From positions 1,192,501 through 1,256,500 of the forward strand of contig NZ_JABXYT010000001.1 in the NCBI RefSeq assembly GCF_013394775.1: a stretch of DNA of 64,000 bases, read 5' to 3'. Shown one piece after another: positions 6,193 to 29,529 of the stretch. Source of the DNA: Oribacterium sp. oral taxon 102 (GTDB taxonomy: Bacteria > Bacillota > Clostridia > Lachnospirales > Lachnospiraceae). The notes under the pieces were generated by a model. That model made no database searches, was not told where the DNA came from, and saw nothing but the letters and a program-made list of their open reading frames with translations. Position numbers and translations under genes: made by a program. Numbering within the stretch: the stretch's first letter is position 1; every line of letters begins with the position of its first letter.

Positions 6193-6591
6193 ATGAAATT
6201 GGCATACCCTGCGACTTTTACGCCGTTTGATGATAGGGAAGATGGCTATGTAGTGGAGTTTCCAGATCTTCCGGGATGCGTCACGGAAGGATATGGAATT
6301 GCGGATGCATTGTTTATGGCAGAAGATGCAGCAAGCGGCTGGATTCTGACGGAGCTTGAGGACGGGAGAACGCCGCCAAGTGCATCTAATCCACAAGCTG
6401 TACAAGCGCCCACTGGCGGATTTGTGAGTATGATCCGGCTTGATATGGACGCTTATGCAGAGAAGTATGGACAGAAGGCGGTGAAAAAGACGCTTACCAT
6501 TCCCGCATGGATGAATACTTATGTGGAGGAACATAAAATCAGCTGTTCTAAGGTACTGCAGGATGCGGTGAATGAACTGATTGAGGCATAA
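6193..6591 (+). CDS. hicB: HicB antitoxin with C-terminal ribbon-helix-helix domain
   Basis: 132 residues from the ATG at 6193, which follows AAGGAGG at 6181-6187; an in-frame start at 6142 overlaps hicA but lacks a good site. The N-terminal partial RNase-H-like fold is marked by 'GYVVEFPDLPGCVTEG' and 'ALFMAEDAASGWIL'. The C-terminal 45 residues ('KKTLTIPAWMNTYVEEHKIS') form the RHH DNA-binding domain. Neutralises HicA and represses the operon. The shared motif upstream of 6714 suggests it also controls a neighbouring small gene. Confidence 0.9.
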   Translation: MKLAYPATFTPFDDREDGYVVEFPDLPGCVTEGYGIADALFMAEDAASGWILTELEDGRTPPSASNPQAVQAPTGGFVSMIRLDMDAYAEKYGQKAVKKTLTIPAWMNTYVEEHKISCSKVLQDAVNELIEA

Positions 6592-25357: not shown

Positions 25358-25444
25358 TTGTATTCGCTATTACTGAATTTTTATTTTATACTTACGAAAT
25401 TTTGGCAGAGATTCTCGGGAATGAGTGAGAGGAGGGCAAGATGA
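25358..25444 (+). CDS. mini-ORF (28 aa) coupled to holin
   Basis: TTG start behind GAGGAGG (25346-25352), one hydrophobic helix ('LLLNFYFILTKFW') with a basic end, stop overlapping the holin ATG (ATGA). Similar short ORFs precede holin genes in other phages. Moderate support from the overlap and strong SD. Confidence 0.45.
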   Translation: MYSLLLNFYFILTKFWQRFSGMSERRAR

Positions 25445-25860
25445 ACAGAGGCGTATTATGTGCAGCAGTAGGCATTGTCGGGAGCGGTGTGGCTTCCCTT
25501 TTTGGCGGATGGGGTGCAGCGTTGAGTGGACTTGTGTTGTTTATGGCGATTGATTTTGCAATGGGGCTTACCGTAGCCGGAGTATTCAAGCGGTCAAAGA
25601 AGACGGACGGCGGCGCGCTGGAGAGCCGTGCGGGCTGGAAAGGGCTGTGCAGAAAGGTGTATACGCTCGCACTCGTGCTCGTTGCGCATTGGCTCGATAT
25701 TATTACCGGAACGAGCTACATCCGGGACGCGGTATGCATCGGCTTTATCGCTAATGAAGCAATATCCATCCTTGAAAATGCGGGGCTGATGGGAATCCCT
25801 ATCCCCTCCGTGATGTCTAAGGCTATCGAGGTGCTGAGGGATAAGGATGTAAAGAAGTAA
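25441..25860 (+). CDS. phage holin (Holin_4 / toxin-secretion type)
   Basis: 139 residues, three hydrophobic stretches ('VASLFGGWGAALSGLVLFMA', 'VYTLALVLVAHWLDI', 'DAVCIGFIANEAISI'), with the family signature 'ESRAGWKGLCRKV' between and 'ILENAGLMGIPIPSVM' after. Forms membrane lesions to release the endolysin encoded 2.7 kb downstream, the regulatory block lying between. Confidence 0.85.
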   Translation: MNRGVLCAAVGIVGSGVASLFGGWGAALSGLVLFMAIDFAMGLTVAGVFKRSKKTDGGALESRAGWKGLCRKVYTLALVLVAHWLDIITGTSYIRDAVCIGFIANEAISILENAGLMGIPIPSVMSKAIEVLRDKDVKK

Positions 25861-25920
25861 GTACCGGCAATTCCGCCGCTACGATATAGTGCCCCGACAA
25901 TCGGGGAGAAAGGAACATTT

Positions 25921-26073
25921 ATGAAGGAACATGCAGAGAGACCGGGAAAGTATTATGATGGGATCGAGAGGGATTCCGACACCACGAAGTTCCACGGTCC
26001 GGACGACACTGCCGATGCAAACCATGACGGGAAGCTCGACAGCAAGCCGGGGCTCGGCAAGGACAAGGAGTAA
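25921..26073 (+). CDS. small acidic phage protein (50 aa)
   Basis: AAAGGA precedes the ATG. Hydrophilic 'DDTADANHDGKLDSKPGLGK' has an EF-hand-like Asp pattern, but this may be chance. No family recognised. Followed by a terminator. Confidence 0.45.
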   Translation: MKEHAERPGKYYDGIERDSDTTKFHGPDDTADANHDGKLDSKPGLGKDKE

Positions 26074-26086
26074 TACTGTCGGGAGG

Positions 26087-26114
26087 GGAGCTGCGAATGC
26101 GGCTCCTCTTTTTT
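26087..26114 (+). terminator. intrinsic terminator of the late operon
   Basis: Stem GGAGCTGC / GCGGCTCC with loop GAAT, then TCTTTTTT. Separates late genes from the repressor/antirepressor block. Confidence 0.8.
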
Positions 26115-26138
26115 GCACGAAAAAGTGTAAATTATCTC

Positions 26139-26167
26139 TTGACTTTTGTCATGACATAATATATAAT
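26139..26167 (+). promoter_or_regulatory. promoter with TGTCATGACA operator (cassette A)
   Basis: TTGACT at 26139-26144 and TATAAT at 26162-26167, 17-nt spacer. The perfect palindrome TGTCATGACA (26147-26156) fills the spacer, a natural place for an RHH repressor. Drives the 39-aa peptide and the first RHH gene. Confidence 0.75.
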
Positions 26168-26227
26168 AAAGTCACAGTTAAGAAAGACTTAACGAGTCAG
26201 GCAGGCAAGAGCCAGAAAGGAGAGAAG

Positions 26228-26347
26228 ATGGACGAGGAAATGACCAGCAAGGAGCTTGAAATAGTCCTTAAAATGATTATCCAGATTATTAAGGATAGTA
26301 AGGACAAGGACGAGGCAATCAAAAAAATAGAAGCCCTGCTGAAATAA
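26228..26347 (+). CDS. small helical peptide (39 aa) of cassette A
   Basis: AAAGGAG lies 8 nt before the ATG. The peptide is one charged amphipathic helix ('EIVLKMIIQIIKDSKDKDEA'). It is followed by a strong hairpin (ACAGGCGGT / ACCGCCTGT, 26369-26393) in the gap before the first RHH gene. Role unknown; not present in cassettes B and C. Confidence 0.5.
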   Translation: MDEEMTSKELEIVLKMIIQIIKDSKDKDEAIKKIEALLK

Positions 26348-26445
26348 CAGAGCTTCTACAACCTACAAACAGGCGGTACTTGCCACCGCCTGTACTCAAT
26401 ATGAGTTTATCATGCTGGGGGGATTCAGGCAAGAGTCAAGAGGTG

Positions 26446-26635
26446 ATGAAAAGTAGAAAAGAAAAAGTTAGGTAGACCTACAGACAGCCCTAAAAGTTAC
26501 CGAGAAAGTTTCCGATTATCCGAAGAAGATATGGAGAAGGTCAGATTCTGCATAGAAAAGTCGGGACTAAGCAAAACAGAGGTTATCAGGGCAGGGATTG
26601 ATAGGCTGTACCAAGAGATGAAACTTAATAAATAA
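26446..26635 (+). pseudogene. RHH repressor A, frame broken at an A5 run
   Basis: The frame ending at 26635 encodes 'LGRPTDSPKSYRESFRLSEE' and 'SGLSKTEVIRAGIDRLYQEM', plainly a sister of RHH genes B and C (GRPTDNPK, GRPKSDNPK). It has no start codon in frame. The ATG at 26446 opens the neighbouring frame and reaches TAG after GAA AAA GTT AGG. A -2 slip (or +1) on the AAAAA run would join the two, the same GAAAAAG string as in the tail chaperone. A one-base insertion giving a dead gene is the simpler view. Confidence 0.65.
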
Positions 26636-26693
26636 GAACAGCCGCTCCACCGACCAAAGCTTAGCGACTGTTCAAGACAGAAGTTTCCTTCCA
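26625..26693 (-). ncRNA. predicted antisense RNA A (sar-like)
   Basis: Minus-strand promoter: TTGAAA (complement of 26723-26728), 17-nt spacer, TAGTAT (26700-26705), the weakest of the three. Start expected near 26693. Stem 1 (GAACAG / CTGTTC, 26636-26673) followed on the minus strand by TTATTTATT would terminate it near 26625, giving about 69 nt. Confidence 0.45.
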
Positions 26694-26777
26694 TGAAATA
26701 TACTATCATGGAGAGAGACTTCTTTCAAGAACCCTAAAGGTTAGAAAGGAAGTCTTTTTATTATGGGAAAAATCTAA
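26636..26777 (+). promoter_or_regulatory. RNA module A: two hairpins, SD switch and truncated start 'MGKI'
   Basis: Stem 1 26636-26673. Stem 2 26679-26723 (AGAAGT...TCCATG with CATGGA...ACTTCT), loop AAATATACTAT. The segment GACTTCTTTC (26717-26726) can pair instead with GAAAGGAAGTC (26744-26754), which holds the SD of the ATG at 26763. That ATG opens a 4-codon frame ending TAA at 26775-26777, right before promoter B. Confidence 0.6.
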
Positions 26778-26785
26778 AATTCTTC

Positions 26786-26827
26786 TTGACTTTTGGAAGA
26801 CATAAGTTATAATAATTTTGGAAGACA
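26786..26827 (+). promoter_or_regulatory. promoter with TTTTGGAAGACA direct repeats (cassette B)
   Basis: TTGACT 26786-26791, TATAAT 26808-26813, 16-nt spacer. TTTTGGAAGACA occurs at 26791-26802 and 26816-26827, one in the spacer and one just downstream of -10, 25 nt apart. Probable operator for RHH-B. Confidence 0.7.
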
Positions 26828-26846
26828 AAAGAGAGGAGGGAAGAGA

Positions 26847-27020
26847 ATGTCTCCAAAAACAGGGAGACCAACAGACAATCCTAAGAATTATAAAATCACA
26901 GTGCGCTTAGATGATGATTCTGCGAGAATTATGAATGCTTATTGTAAGCAGGAGAGTATAGATCGGGCAGAAGCTGTTAGAAGAGGGTTGAAAAAGTTGG
27001 AATCCGAACTAAAAGAATAA
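26847..27020 (+). CDS. Arc/Mnt-like RHH repressor B
   Basis: 57 residues, ATG 26847 behind GAGGAGGG. 'GRPTDNPKNYKITVRLDDDS' gives the N-terminal basic arm and beta strand, 'SARIMNAYCKQESIDRAEAV' the first helix and turn, 'VRRGLKKLESEL' the second helix: a complete MetJ/Arc RHH fold. Own promoter and repeated operator directly upstream imply autoregulation. Ends 2 nt before stem 1 of its RNA module. Confidence 0.8.
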   Translation: MSPKTGRPTDNPKNYKITVRLDDDSARIMNAYCKQESIDRAEAVRRGLKKLESELKE

Positions 27021-27076
27021 AAGGAACGTCCGCTACACGACCAAGCACAACGAACGTTCCGCACCCAAACAGGTAC
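27012..27076 (-). ncRNA. predicted antisense RNA B (sar-like)
   Basis: Best of the three minus-strand promoters: TTGCCA (complement of 27106-27111), exactly 17 nt, TATAAT (complement of 27083-27088). Start near 27076. Stem 1 (GGAACGT / ACGTTCC, 27023-27060) followed on the minus strand by TTTTATTCTTTT is a clear intrinsic terminator. Product about 65 nt, covering stem 1 and the 5' arm of stem 2. Confidence 0.6.
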
Positions 27077-27165
27077 GTAAATATTATACTATGCGTACCT
27101 TTGTTTGGCAAACCAAAAAACCAAATGGAGGTACTTTTCTTATGGGCAGAATAAAAACCTCTTGA
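27023..27165 (+). promoter_or_regulatory. RNA module B: two hairpins, SD switch and truncated start 'MGRIKTS'
   Basis: Stem 1 27023-27060 (38 nt, same length as in module A). Stem 2 27066-27107: CAAACA-GGTACG with CGTACC-TGTTTG, loop AAATATTATACTAT. GTACC of the 3' arm can pair with GGTAC of the SD region (GGAGG at 27127-27131). ATG 27142 opens seven codons then TGA at 27163-27165, inside the -35 of promoter C. Confidence 0.6.
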
Positions 27166-27204
27166 CATTATGTGCGCACAGTGATTAAATAAATGTACGG
27201 ACAT
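27162..27204 (+). promoter_or_regulatory. promoter with TGTGCGCACA palindrome (cassette C)
   Basis: TTGACA 27162-27167, TTAAAT 27185-27190, 17-nt spacer holding the perfect palindrome TGTGCGCACA (27171-27180). A second near-palindrome ATGTACGGACAT lies at 27193-27204, 23 nt away. Probable operator pair for RHH-C. Confidence 0.7.
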
Positions 27205-27222
27205 AAAGAAAGGAGGGAAAAT

Positions 27223-27390
27223 GTGAGTCCACGAACAGGCAGACCTAAGTCTGATAATCCAAAAACTGAAAGGCTTTACATAAGGATATCGCCTGATGAA
27301 AAGAAGGAAATCCAAGATTTTACAAGTAAATCAGGCCACAGTCTTTTGGACCTTATCAGAATAGGAATATCTGCGTTAAAGAAAAAATAA
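27223..27390 (+). CDS. Arc/Mnt-like RHH repressor C
   Basis: 55 residues from GTG 27223 behind AAAGGAGGG. 'SPRTGRPKSDNPKTERLYIR' arm and strand, 'PDEKKEIQDFTSKSGHSLLD' first helix and turn, 'LIRIGISALKKK' second helix. Same domain plan as RHH-B but only loosely similar in sequence, so DNA specificity probably differs, as the different operators suggest. Confidence 0.8.
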   Translation: MSPRTGRPKSDNPKTERLYIRISPDEKKEIQDFTSKSGHSLLDLIRIGISALKKK

Positions 27391-27453
27391 GAGTAACCGG
27401 CTACTTTGGCGAGAGACGGTCACTCTTGTTGGGAAACTCCGTTAGGAGCCTCT
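27381..27453 (-). ncRNA. predicted antisense RNA C (sar-like)
   Basis: Minus-strand promoter TTGCCG (complement of 27483-27488), 17-nt spacer, TATTCT (complement of 27460-27465). Start near 27453. Stem 1 (GAGTAACCG / CGGTCACTC, 27391-27425) followed on the minus strand by TTATTTTTTC terminates it. About 73 nt. Confidence 0.55.
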
Positions 27454-27513
27454 GTAAATAGAATACTACAGAGGGCTTCTTTCGGCAACCATGAAAGGAG
27501 TCTTTTTCTTATG
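27391..27513 (+). promoter_or_regulatory. RNA module C: leader of the gene before the antirepressor, with SD switch
   Basis: Stem 1 27391-27425. Stem 2 27444-27480 (AGGAG-CCTCTGT with ACAGAGG-CTTCT), loop AAATAGAATACT. GGCTTCTTTC (27474-27483) can pair over ten bases with GAAAGGAGTC (27493-27502), masking the SD of ATG 27511. Here the following reading frame is complete. Confidence 0.6.
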
Positions 27514-27705
27514 GGCAGAATTAAGAGTGTTCACAAAGTAATCGAAAATCTTGAGGTGAAAGAAGCTTATGCACCATGCGTGAGCCATTTTGAGGAAATC
27601 AAGCAGAACGGTCACGGTATATGGGACATGATGTGGGATAGCTTCAAGTTCGGATATTTGCAGGGTATGAAAGCCGCTAAGGCAGAAAGGAGAAGAGCAG
27701 TATGA
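27511..27705 (+). CDS. small protein translated ahead of the antirepressor (64 aa)
   Basis: ATG 27511 with AAAGGAG ten bases upstream; a longer in-frame start at 27406 would run through the RNA module and is rejected. 'MGRIKSVHKVIENLEVKEAY' and 'WDMMWDSFKFGYLQGMKAAK' show no known domain. The stop overlaps the antirepressor ATG (ATGA), so its translation, controlled by module C, should set antirepressor translation. Confidence 0.65.
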   Translation: MGRIKSVHKVIENLEVKEAYAPCVSHFEEIKQNGHGIWDMMWDSFKFGYLQGMKAAKAERRRAV

Positions 27706-28490
27706 ACGAGATGAAGATTTTCACCAATGAGGAGTTTGGAGAAGTAAGAACGGTGGAGATTGAGAGCGAGCCTTATTTTGTGGGGAAGGATGTCGCCGAT
27801 ATTCTCGGGTACCAAAACGGTAGTCGAGATATCAACCGCCATGTTGAAGAGGAAGATCGTGAGAAGATTATGTTCTTTGATGGTAATCAGGACAAGGAAA
27901 CTATTGTAATCAACGAGTCCGGTCTTTACAGCCTGATCCTCTCCAGCAAGCTCCCGAATGCAAAGCGTTTCAAGCGCTGGGTGACTTCGGAGGTACTGCC
28001 CAGCATCCGCCGACATGGTATGTACGCCATGGATGAGTTGATCGAGAACCCCGATCTTGCTATCAACGCCCTCACCGCACTGAAAGAGGAGCGGGCGAAG
28101 CGCAAGGCATTGGAACTTGAGAATCAGGTCAAGGATCAGCAGATCGCAGAGCTTCAGCCGAAGGCAAGCTACTATGACCTTGTCCTCCAGTGCAAGGATC
28201 TTCTCTCTATGACGGAGATTGCCAAGGACTACGGCATGAGCGCTAAGAAGATGAATAAGCTCCTCCATGAGCTGGGAGTGCAGTTCAACCAGTCTGGTGT
28301 CTGGTTCCTGTATGCGAAGTACCAGGATAAGGGCTATACGCAGACCAAGACGCAGAACTACAACAAGCCGGATGGTACACAGGGCGCTAAAACGCATATG
28401 TACTGGACACAGAAGGGGCGGCTGTTCCTCTACGAGCTTCTTAAACAGAACGGGATTCTCCCGATGATTGAGAGAGATGACGCGGCATAA
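27702..28490 (+). CDS. phage antirepressor (BRO-N + KilAC/ANT domains)
   Basis: 262 residues. N-terminal BRO domain: 'RTVEIESEPYFVGKDVADIL', 'DKETIVINESGLYSLILSSK', 'AKRFKRWVTSEVLPSIRRHG'. Linker 'ERAKRKALELENQVKDQQIA' is coiled-coil-like. C-terminal ANT/KilAC: 'LLSMTEIAKDYGMSAKKMNK', 'QDKGYTQTKTQNYN', 'TQKGRLFLYELLKQNGILP'. Antirepressors bind and inactivate phage repressors, allowing induction or prophage cross-talk. It lies between holin and endolysin rather than near an early repressor, downstream of three RHH-RNA cassettes. Confidence 0.9.
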   Translation: MNEMKIFTNEEFGEVRTVEIESEPYFVGKDVADILGYQNGSRDINRHVEEEDREKIMFFDGNQDKETIVINESGLYSLILSSKLPNAKRFKRWVTSEVLPSIRRHGMYAMDELIENPDLAINALTALKEERAKRKALELENQVKDQQIAELQPKASYYDLVLQCKDLLSMTEIAKDYGMSAKKMNKLLHELGVQFNQSGVWFLYAKYQDKGYTQTKTQNYNKPDGTQGAKTHMYWTQKGRLFLYELLKQNGILPMIERDDAA

Positions 28491-28500
28491 TGTATATTTC

Positions 28501-28523
28501 GCCGCCCTTCGGGGCGGCTCTTT
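28501..28523 (+). terminator. terminator after the antirepressor
   Basis: GCCGCCC-TTCG-GGGCGGC followed by TCTTT. Very stable UUCG hairpin 11 nt after the stop. Confidence 0.8.
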
Positions 28524-28546
28524 AAGTTGGAGGAAAGGAAAAGAAA

Positions 28547-29314
28547 ATGGCAATCAAGGAGAAAGATATCACGATCTGCGGGCACGGCTCCGGAAGACCG
28601 TCGCTGAAGAATCTTGAGGTATATCTCGGCTATCGCTACGGACAGCAAGCAACGAACGGGAAGCGCAAGGGGCTTGTCAAGGTGATGCGCCTCCGGACGA
28701 TGGACGAGGCCGGACGACAGCGCTTCCGGGAAGCTTATAAGAGGATCCTCGGCAGGAACGTTTACAGTCAGCCGCTTCGTGCGTATGTCTACGACAAGTA
28801 CAAGGACGGGAAGTATTACTCTGATTGTTCCTCTTCCGGCATGGCGGCGATGCAGCAGGCAGGCTATCCGGTGACGCTCCTGAATACGGCGGGGATTTAT
28901 CGAAGCAAGTTTTTCGAGGAAGTACCGGTGCAGATCAGCGCCGGACATATCCTGAATCCGGAGGTGCTGCGGGTGGGGGATGCGCTGCTTTTCGTGGGGA
29001 GCGACCCGTCAAGACCGTTGCAGATCGGGCACGTCGAGTATGTCTATGAGATGCTGGAGGCTAAGAAGAAGTATGTCCCGGGATGGCATCTGGATGATCG
29101 CGGATGGTGGTTCGCGGACACGGAGCAGAGCTGTCTCAAGAGCTGCTGGCGGCTCATCAATCATCATTGGTACTACTTCGGGGCAGACGGATACATTCTC
29201 ACCGGTGTGCAGAAGATGGATGGGAAGCTTTACTATTTGACGGAAGCAGGGAAGCTCATGGGCGCGCTTTGCCGGACGGACGAGAGTGGTGCGCTGGCAC
29301 CATGGGATGTATAG
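28547..29314 (+). CDS. endolysin, NlpC/P60-like with choline-binding-type repeats
   Basis: 255 residues. N-terminal cysteine peptidase/amidase: catalytic Cys in 'SDCSSSGMAAMQQAG' near residue 94 and His in 'QIGHVEYVY' near 163. The C-terminal 70 residues carry aromatic cell-wall repeats ('GWHLDDRGWWFAD', 'HHWYYFGADGYILTGVQKM', 'GKLYYLTEAG'). Degrades host peptidoglycan at lysis. Last gene of the prophage. Confidence 0.85.
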   Translation: MAIKEKDITICGHGSGRPSLKNLEVYLGYRYGQQATNGKRKGLVKVMRLRTMDEAGRQRFREAYKRILGRNVYSQPLRAYVYDKYKDGKYYSDCSSSGMAAMQQAGYPVTLLNTAGIYRSKFFEEVPVQISAGHILNPEVLRVGDALLFVGSDPSRPLQIGHVEYVYEMLEAKKKYVPGWHLDDRGWWFADTEQSCLKSCWRLINHHWYYFGADGYILTGVQKMDGKLYYLTEAGKLMGALCRTDESGALAPWDV

Positions 29315-29452: not shown

Positions 29453-29457
29453 ATCGA

Positions 29458-29529
29458 GCTGATGACGGGAATCGGACCCGTGACCTCCGCACTACCAATG
29501 CGACGCACTACCGACTGTGCTACATCAGC
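29458..29529 (-). tRNA. tRNA-Thr(GGT), probable prophage attachment site
   Basis: Minus strand. Acceptor stem GCTGATG / CATCAGC, D arm GCAC...GTGC, anticodon stem TCGCA / TGCGG with loop TTGGTAG (anticodon GGT, threonine), T arm ACGGG-TCCGATTC-CCGT. No CCA encoded. Its 3' end faces the prophage, the usual arrangement when a phage integrates into a tRNA 3' end and rebuilds the gene. Confidence 0.9.

Follow-up and report, generated by a model that had tools for sequence, protein, structure and literature searches.

The closest described counterparts of the locus considered here come from plasmid copy control and from the immunity regions of phages. The locus lies at positions 26139-28490 of a 64,000-nucleotide (nt) stretch of DNA from Oribacterium sp. 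oral taxon 102 (the window, to which all coordinates refer) and consists of three units, A, B, and C, each a ribbon–helix–helix (RHH) gene followed by a structured RNA element, that lead to an antirepressor gene. CopG, the repressor of plasmid pMV158, is an RHH protein, as is Arc of phage P22, whose immI region has a second RHH repressor, Mnt, and an antisense RNA, sar, of 68-69 nt; in immI of phage P1, the c4 RNA lies on the same strand as its target, and we know of no RHH gene there. The copG-rnaII-repB region of pMV158 is described as opening with a small autorepressor gene, followed by an intergenic leader overlain on the opposite strand by a short antisense RNA (a 5′ tail, a terminator hairpin, and a U tail) and then by the effector gene (PMC4485353, PMC5717011). 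Both brakes are reported to act in trans, relief of repression letting the plasmid establish (PMC4485353, PMC5717011), and excess Cop repressor in a recipient impairs the establishment of cognate, but not of unrelated, plasmids (PMC5717011). For the pT181 family, control is described as resting on the antisense RNA alone (PMC5717011): this RNA sequesters an antiterminator, whereupon an intrinsic terminator forms (PMC4878617).

For Salmonella phages, the account of P22 immI (arc, sar, and ant) describes sar as inhibiting the translation of arc (PMC12111858). For P1 immI (c4 RNA, icd, and ant), a trans-acting RNA is described as repressing antirepressor synthesis, and the title of a reference cited in the same article places the small gene icd in the operon (PMC8546580). 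Phage repressor/antirepressor pairs and a Bro-Xre complex are discussed elsewhere, in a passage that mentions neither RHH proteins nor RNA (PMC2701414). Antisense start sites within prophage-protein genes are reported for C. difficile, in an article whose main text does not contain the word 'antirepressor' (PMC3649979), and the main text of a study of premature terminators is free of phage-, antirepressor-, antisense-, and pT181-words (PMC2965389). No such unit on a phage antirepressor appears among the literature matches listed, as represented by titles and abstract openings, with subscription journals mostly outside.

Compared with these systems, the locus is probably a two-layer brake that follows the design of plasmid copy-control modules, with pT181-type attenuation under a CopG-like repressor, placed on phage antirepressors. 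The module is real and recurrent as a control unit, and its anatomy, conservation, and genetic company are open to direct observation. Its core is an element of ~130 nt, situated between the stop codon of the RHH gene and the next start codon, which follows a recurring plan. A hairpin (h1), whose loop often reads CCGACCAAAG, comes first, and on the opposite strand it reads as a terminator with a U-run. An arm, AGAAGTTTCC, then pairs with GGAAACTTCT so as to enclose a second hairpin (h2) and form an antiterminator. Alternatively, ACTTCTTTCAA pairs with TTGAAAGGAGT, which is followed by TTTTTATT and the start codon, and this forms a sense terminator that holds the Shine–Dalgarno (SD) sequence. 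On the minus strand, a promoter has its −35 box inside the sense terminator and its −10 box inside the h2 loop; thus, the predicted antisense RNA would start at the antiterminator arm and end after h1.

Unit A begins with a plus-strand promoter at 26139-26167 (TTGACT-17-TATAAT, 11/12), which by eye has a palindromic, operator-like core and is of the same type as the promoters of two other loci (L007 and L033). The body of RHH A (26456-26635, plus strand) is an open frame without an in-frame start codon, the ATG behind the ribosome-binding site falling in another frame; relatives with an open frame are present elsewhere. Element A (26628-26765, plus strand) contains h1, the antiterminator with h2, and a sense terminator overlapping the SD sequence, and its start codon at 26763 opens a vestige, MGKI and a stop codon. 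The predicted antisense RNA of ~67 nt (26627-26693, minus strand) would be made from a promoter at 26728-26700 (TTGAAA-17-TAGTAT). Unit B has its plus-strand promoter, with a direct repeat TTTTGGAAGACA, at 26786-26813 (TTGACT-16-TATAAT), an open RHH gene at 26847-27020 (plus strand; 57 amino acids), and an element at 27016-27144 (plus strand) whose start codon at 27142 leads into a second vestige, MGRIKTS and a stop codon; its antisense RNA (~62 nt; 27016-27077, minus strand) would start from a promoter at 27111-27083 (TTGCCA-17-TATAAT). The plus-strand promoter of unit C (27162-27190; TTGACA-17-TTAAAT, with a weak −10) was recognised by eye and not by the promoter scan. It precedes RHH C (27223-27390, plus strand; 55 amino acids, open, with a GTG start) and element C (27383-27513, plus strand), and the corresponding antisense RNA (~72 nt; 27382-27453, minus strand) has its candidate promoter at 27488-27460 (TTGCCG-17-TATTCT). 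Element C stands directly before a small gene (27511-27705, plus strand; 64 amino acids, with a C-terminal GYxQGMKAAKAE motif), so that each unit closes with the beginning of this gene or with one of its vestiges (MGKI, MGRIKTS, and then MGRIKSV). The small gene overlaps the start (ATGA) of the antirepressor gene at 27702-28490 (plus strand; 262 amino acids), whose product matches PHROG 130, anti-repressor Ant (1.5e-99), and the Pfam domains Bro-N (4.3e-28) and ANT (KilAC; 1.9e-37).

Three RHH genes with A broken and B and C intact, a structured module with a predicted opposite-strand RNA behind each, and a small gene overlapping a BRO/KilAC antirepressor gene had all been described in an earlier note on this DNA, and these descriptions stand. 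The promoter-operator that it placed near every RHH gene is located for B and C; that of A is separated from its gene by a 39-codon frame and a hairpin. The vestiges of the small gene that close the upstream units are an addition to its account. All three RHH proteins match PHROG 876, annotated 'transcriptional repressor' (A 5.4e-15, B 4.7e-15, and C 1.1e-7). None of them reaches a Pfam cut-off, RHH_1 being approached by A only (19.3 bits against a cut-off of 20.5), and the matches of RHH B in the host genome at E-values up to 0.1 are only itself, A, and C. A 64-row RHH profile compared with PDB sequences gives 2kel (protein 56B; 2.6e-4), ParG (0.1), CopG (0.35), and designed proteins; Arc and Mnt are not among the 12 matches listed at E-values up to 1.

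The predicted antisense RNAs of the three units (62-72 nt) fold with z-scores of −4.1 (A), −5.6 (B), and −5.5 (C), and the sense leaders with −5.7, −2.4, and −4.2, respectively. Across 25900-28600, seven promoter-like sites (3.8 in shuffles) and nine terminator-like sites (2.4 in shuffles) are found. Beyond the window, the element was followed with a covariance model, R1, trained on 14 copies (11 from viral contigs, two from the window, and one from a contig of a metagenome-assembled genome). Elements A and C belong to the training set and score 120 and 65 bits; B lies outside it and scores 34.9 bits (E-value 7e-5 in 297 kb). Removal of seven of the 108 R1 matches (four rows from two loci fetched twice and three reverse-strand echoes) leaves 101 elements at 90 loci, the 14 training copies included; a second, weaker element of L036 (25 bits) is kept out of the counts. 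A set termed independent holds 70 elements from 66 loci in genomes of the host's phylum, none of which was used to train R1. Weak matches with neither an RHH gene nor phage-like cargo (for example, L052, L119, L121, and L123) are retained in the counts of 101 and 70; these four look like other RNAs or chance. Hairpins with a CCGACCAAAG loop, without an RHH gene or evident cargo, are seen in L052 (part of L080), L082, and L083, that of L052 also with an antisense promoter; they are possibly orphan antisense RNAs or members of another family.

Conservation of the element as RNA emerges from three alignments. RNAalifold, applied to a MAFFT alignment of the 14 training copies (A3), chose h1, the antiterminator, and h2 unaided. 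With this structure and two further pairs, changes on both sides affect 16 of 24 pairs, in 59 cells, a value matched by none of 500 shuffles, and 88.8% of cells are paired as against 43%-52% when the structure is slid. All 108 matches aligned to R1 (A4) contain 782 cells that change on both sides, again with none of 500 shuffles as high, in an alignment that was fitted to the structure and leans to it. In a MAFFT alignment of 30 high-scoring elements of the independent 70 (A8), the antiterminator is paired in 81.5% of cells, with 18 cells changed on both sides and none of 500 shuffles reaching this, and in 27 of the 30 the h1 region has a z-score below −2. The other parts of the plan recur among the 101 elements, here compared with shuffles that preserve base composition only. 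An antisense promoter of at least 9/12 is present in 93; the plus strand yields one in 30, and shuffled sequences in 19. The −10 box ends 71-84 nt from the element start in 84 of the 93, and 18 of the tabulated promoters carry TTGACA or TTGCCA, unlike the TTGAAA of R1. A sense terminator with a T-run occurs in 76 elements as against 14.6 in shuffles, with an SD-like triplet within the 3′ arm in 69 of the 76. The A-rich edge that would give the U-run of the antisense RNA is found in 99, a count that has no control.

The element also has recurring company. A profile built from 11 seed proteins finds a same-family RHH gene ending at the 5′ edge of the element in 44 of the 70 independent elements, with control values of zero 400 nt downstream, zero on the antisense strand, and five ~900 nt upstream. 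A different 70 elements, selected for a recognisable RHH frame with at least 80 nt upstream and including training copies, show RHH promoters of at least 9/12 in 57 (shuffles 6.2) and promoters with a repeat or palindrome of at least 9/10 in 50 (shuffles 6.4); by eye, the repeated words vary between units. Within the host's family, 25 of 397 genomes have R1 matches (E-value up to 0.01); at E-values up to 0.001 the figures are 24 of 392 for the order, 17 of 391 for the class, and five of 398 for the phylum, in samples that overlap and each count the host's own genome. A DNA search places the element in streptococcal and Clostridioides phages, and the order RHH gene, element, small gene, 'putative antirepressor' is found in the named Streptococcus phages Javan119, Javan190 (two units), and phi30c. 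The small protein has no match among named phages and, at E-values up to 0.01, none in Pfam, PHROG, or NCBIfam; its relatives number 545 proteins at E-values up to 0.001 among 841 candidates. In a plasmid collection, one C. difficile record carries the L007 module, and six records match the window only in the antirepressor gene.

The association of RHH repressor, antisense RNA, and antirepressor as a single control locus with multiplied cassettes, proposed in the earlier note, recurs beyond the window. The note had also named a lack of conservation of the RNA module apart from the genes as an outcome that would count against it; the module is conserved as RNA, with compensatory changes. Two of its proposals are not borne out in the form given. 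The locus is not a Clostridia version of immI in particular, because the element also occurs in streptococcal and Clostridioides phages and before HNH, integrase, and unnamed genes. Nor does the parallel with the sar RNA of P22 fit best: the device resembles a pT181 attenuator set in the CopG/RNAII layout of pMV158, and a sar-like RNA alone was dropped as the main model because an antiterminator and a T-run are present.

Antirepressors are the commonest named class of cargo in both sets of downstream proteins. The independent set comprises 80 downstream frames from 59 of the 66 loci, with none dropped, and its Pfam matches are Bro-N (10), Rha (five), ORF6N (four), integrase (four), ANT (three), AntA (one), HNH_3 (one), and the ArdC N-terminal domain (one), most of the others being unnamed. 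A wider set, 108 proteins out of 121 downstream frames and including loci fetched through the small gene, yields Bro-N (19), ANT (eight), Rha (seven), ORF6N (six), integrase (three), AntA (three), and HNH_3 (two), with seven proteins in PHROG HNH families. A Rep family is absent from the Pfam families of both the 108 proteins (22 families) and the 80 (24 families). Cargo directly after the element is of ORF6N type in L020, L042, and L043, Rha in L022 and L044, and Bro-N in L045; other cargo, like that of the window, is separated from the element by a small gene overlapping or abutting the cargo. A toxin–antitoxin reading was rejected, since the gene after the element varies and there is no fixed toxin. 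Elements or look-alikes also stand before integrase genes at L047:1501-1641 (where the integrase, by eye of the Tn916 type, has a small frame before it), L049:1501-1631 (after one small gene), and L109:1501-1588 (a weak match without an RHH gene); the attenuator may control integration in mobile elements too. At L107:1501-2524, the gene behind a weaker element encodes an N-terminal domain of the ArdC anti-restriction type.

Antisense transcription, attenuation, repression, and immunity in trans are what these sequence features would predict. In the outer layer, judging from promoters, operators, and family, the RHH protein would repress its own promoter, which would also drive the downstream genes. 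In the inner layer, the opposite-strand promoter within the leader would produce a short antisense RNA consisting of a 5′ segment and a terminator hairpin. By pairing with the nascent leader, this RNA would mask the antiterminator arm, so that the sense terminator folds and transcription stops; the ribosome-binding site, being inside the terminator, would be hidden at the same time. In a naive cell, with neither RNA nor RHH protein, the leader would antiterminate and release a burst of the small protein and of the antirepressor, its translation coupled to that of the small gene. In a lysogen, both brakes would have built up and the antirepressor would be silent, the repressor setting the promoter and the antisense RNA catching leakage, as in pMV158. 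As both brakes would be diffusible, an incoming unit should likewise be silenced by a resident one that shares its specificity. Units A and B could in this way supply brakes of other specificities: RNA only in the case of A, and RNA plus repressor in that of B.

How closely the element resembles that of pT181 can be gauged from the Rfam model ctRNA_pT181 (RF00242), searched with E-value limits of 1, 10, and 5. In 11 of 24 sources the model matches the antisense strand at the element, over positions 1-94 of 94, and nowhere else in them. Scores are 45.7 bits in L006 (E-value 0.0026), 43.0 in L084 (0.0074), and 30.9 at window element A (0.18; 26622-26706, minus strand), and the E-values range from 0.11 to 6.1 in L110, L086, L085, L087, L113, L009, L007, and L140; all lie under the gathering cut-off of 56 bits, and some, taken alone, are at chance level. 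This shortfall is one of several points that weigh against the two-layer brake. A gathering-level Rfam scan of 13 loci matched no element to any family, and RNAalifold found no consensus structure in the MAFFT alignment of 30 independent elements. The pair-type count in A3 (one of five covariation measures) and the number of pairs changing on both sides in A4 are not above shuffles. The sense terminator is in register (82.7% of cells paired in the 30 independent elements), with covariation not above shuffles there or in A3; the left arm of the terminator also serves the antiterminator, which limits change and keeps this outcome from weighing clearly either way. The predicted fold of leader A is antiterminated in one calculation and terminated when longer flanks are included. 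The antisense promoter of unit C is the weakest of the three (8/12) and was missed by the promoter scan; the counts of promoters and terminators are partly circular, R1 spanning those columns and 14 of the 101 elements having trained it. By the seed profile, 26 of the 70 independent elements have no GRP-type RHH gene upstream, several of them carrying different RHH types by eye (L089, L093, L102, L113, L124, L128, and L136). Finally, every antisense RNA is deduced from sequence.

Some of the same evidence could be accommodated if the antisense RNA blocked translation only and the sense 'terminator' were a hairpin that sequesters the SD sequence. Of 76 terminator-like elements, 69 have the SD-like triplet within the 3′ arm, the covariation of the terminator is flat, and pMV158 RNAII inhibits translation within the same gene order; all three observations point that way. 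A T-run nevertheless follows the 3′ arm far more often than in shuffles, and a separate antiterminator helix, a requirement of a transcription switch, covaries; control by translation alone is judged rather improbable. It is also conceivable that the unit is a generic mobile control cassette, comparable to a moron promoter and moved by recombination or along with HNH genes, whose role in lysogeny is incidental. Antirepressor families account for at most 20 of the 59 independent loci (Bro-N 10, Rha five, ORF6N four, and AntA one), and the integrase, HNH, ArdC, and many unnamed proteins listed above also follow the element; antirepressors remain, however, the largest named class in both cargo sets, and we regard an incidental role in lysogeny as unlikely. 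The two-layer brake, with attenuation as its inner layer, remains the probable reading.

What the extra units do is a separate question. More than one element is present at nine of the 90 loci, with three each in the window and in genome G1301 (L136:1501-2414). Of the three window units, only C immediately precedes the antirepressor; A and B are cargo-less. Seven of 11 junctions show a stub of the array-closing gene at the end of the upstream unit: MGKI and MGRIKTS, each with a stop codon, beside MGRIKSV in the window; VARIKDVLKK beside VARIKDVLKK in L010; and MNELKIF with a stop codon in L011, compared with the Bro-N gene at 6204. The stubs of L087 (MNN) and L136 (MLT, twice) are so short as to be doubtful alone, and none is seen at junctions of L021, L141, L146, and L048. 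These stubs suggest insertion of new units at the cargo start codon, with older ones left upstream and cargo-less. In L136, the unit next to the cargo has a different RHH type. Specificity was compared through predicted duplex energies for 99 of the 101 elements (two without a promoter being absent), with 12 array pairs drawn from eight of the nine multi-element loci (L146 omitted). Eleven of the 12 pairs lie at 0.16-0.40 of the cognate energy, the exception being units 2 and 3 of L136 (0.88), whose antisense RNAs are almost alike, and only 29 of 9,676 ordered cross-locus pairs reach 0.6. The RNA of unit A fits the leaders of L007 (0.78), the inner unit of L021 (0.74), and L004 (0.63); other fits link the upstream unit of L010 to L022 (0.62) and, within one genome, the first unit of L136 to L138 (0.74). 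Three viral contigs, the L007 pair and L021, contain the 32-nt hairpin of A, with one position ambiguous.

Upstream units such as A and B may be relics, left behind once the cargo start had received a newer unit and now without a function, and we give this account a little less than an even chance. RHH A is broken, element B has drifted (35 bits), and, with stubs at seven of 11 junctions (some of only three codons), upstream units no longer control the array-closing gene. Yet RHH B is open, elements A and B retain the antisense promoter, the hairpins, and the sense terminator, and an RHH frame is open, by eye, in eight of nine upstream units of the other eight arrays (unit 1 of L146 has none); the RNA of unit A, moreover, still fits the leaders of other phages. 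The opposing idea, that of collected immunity, is plausible as an inference: phages of this phylum would keep cargo-less arrays of repressor and antisense RNA as heritable, stacked immunities, each capture of a new unit at the antirepressor start codon (or that of another decision gene) retaining the old one upstream, where its repressor and RNA would still silence the decision genes of matching incoming phages. It is favoured by the match of unit A RNA to leaders of two independent phage loci and by array RNAs that mostly do not cross-match, whereas the absence of exact B and C hairpins from the viral contigs counts against it. As shared descent would give equal cross-matches, these matches indicate that the specificity exists elsewhere and do not demonstrate silencing; retained immunity is put forward tentatively, as a minority view of the arrays. 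If true, it would amount to an immunity of the incompatibility type, enlarged by one unit with every capture and employing two independent recognition codes, operator/RHH and RNA/RNA.

A prophage has the locus at its right end, downstream of its terminase, portal, major head, major tail, and tape-measure genes. A holin gene (25441-25860; Pfam scan) precedes it, and a lysin-like gene (28547-29314; PHROG endolysin families) and a tRNA-Thr gene (29456-29529) follow the antirepressor gene. The 39-codon frame between promoter A and RHH A (26228-26347, plus strand) is acidic and has no family match in Pfam, PHROG, or NCBIfam scans; a similar frame occurs at L011:4777-5007, and in both places a short acidic stretch starting MDEEM precedes the RHH gene. 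The Streptococcus satellite phage Javan154 (L142) carries a pair of consecutive RHH-like genes; behind one lies a weak element match (E-value 0.02), and the next gene has no antirepressor annotation. A relative of the small gene has two skipping-rope RNAs (RF02924) close by, one on each strand (L014:1892-1974 and 2743-2839), and a Bacilli-1 RNA (RF02931) lies just 3′ of the antirepressor gene of the Streptococcus phage phi30c (L143:4490-4553).

The RNA motif alone finds phage decision genes, and the cassette may explain many unnamed GRP-type RHH genes of 50-60 amino acids that precede antirepressors. The arrays offer natural sets of antisense attenuators that, by predicted energy, ought to lack cross-talk, together with a directly testable proposal for the collection of immunities by a prophage.

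Set beside the described systems, the element of the window type shares with pT181 a mutually exclusive antiterminator and terminator, and the ctRNA_pT181 model matches it end to end; it differs in that a repressor gene accompanies the antisense RNA, in the gene downstream, and in a similarity that stays below threshold. With pMV158 it shares a small RHH gene on the same strand before the effector and an opposite-strand promoter and terminator, recognised as sequence, over the leader. The effector here is, however, an antirepressor (or an HNH protein, an integrase, and so on) rather than Rep, and the antiterminator/terminator switch, the tandem units, and the setting in phages are further differences. 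P22 immI offers an RHH repressor, an antisense RNA (here predicted), and an antirepressor gene in this order within one phage locus; no attenuator switch is mentioned in the account consulted (PMC12111858), unlike in the window element. The likeness of P1 immI lies in the control of an antirepressor by RNA and in the small gene of the operon, and both immI regions are best regarded as functional analogues. The cassette ties the CopG/RNAII mode of copy control, attenuation as in pT181, and an immI region of P22 type into one module.

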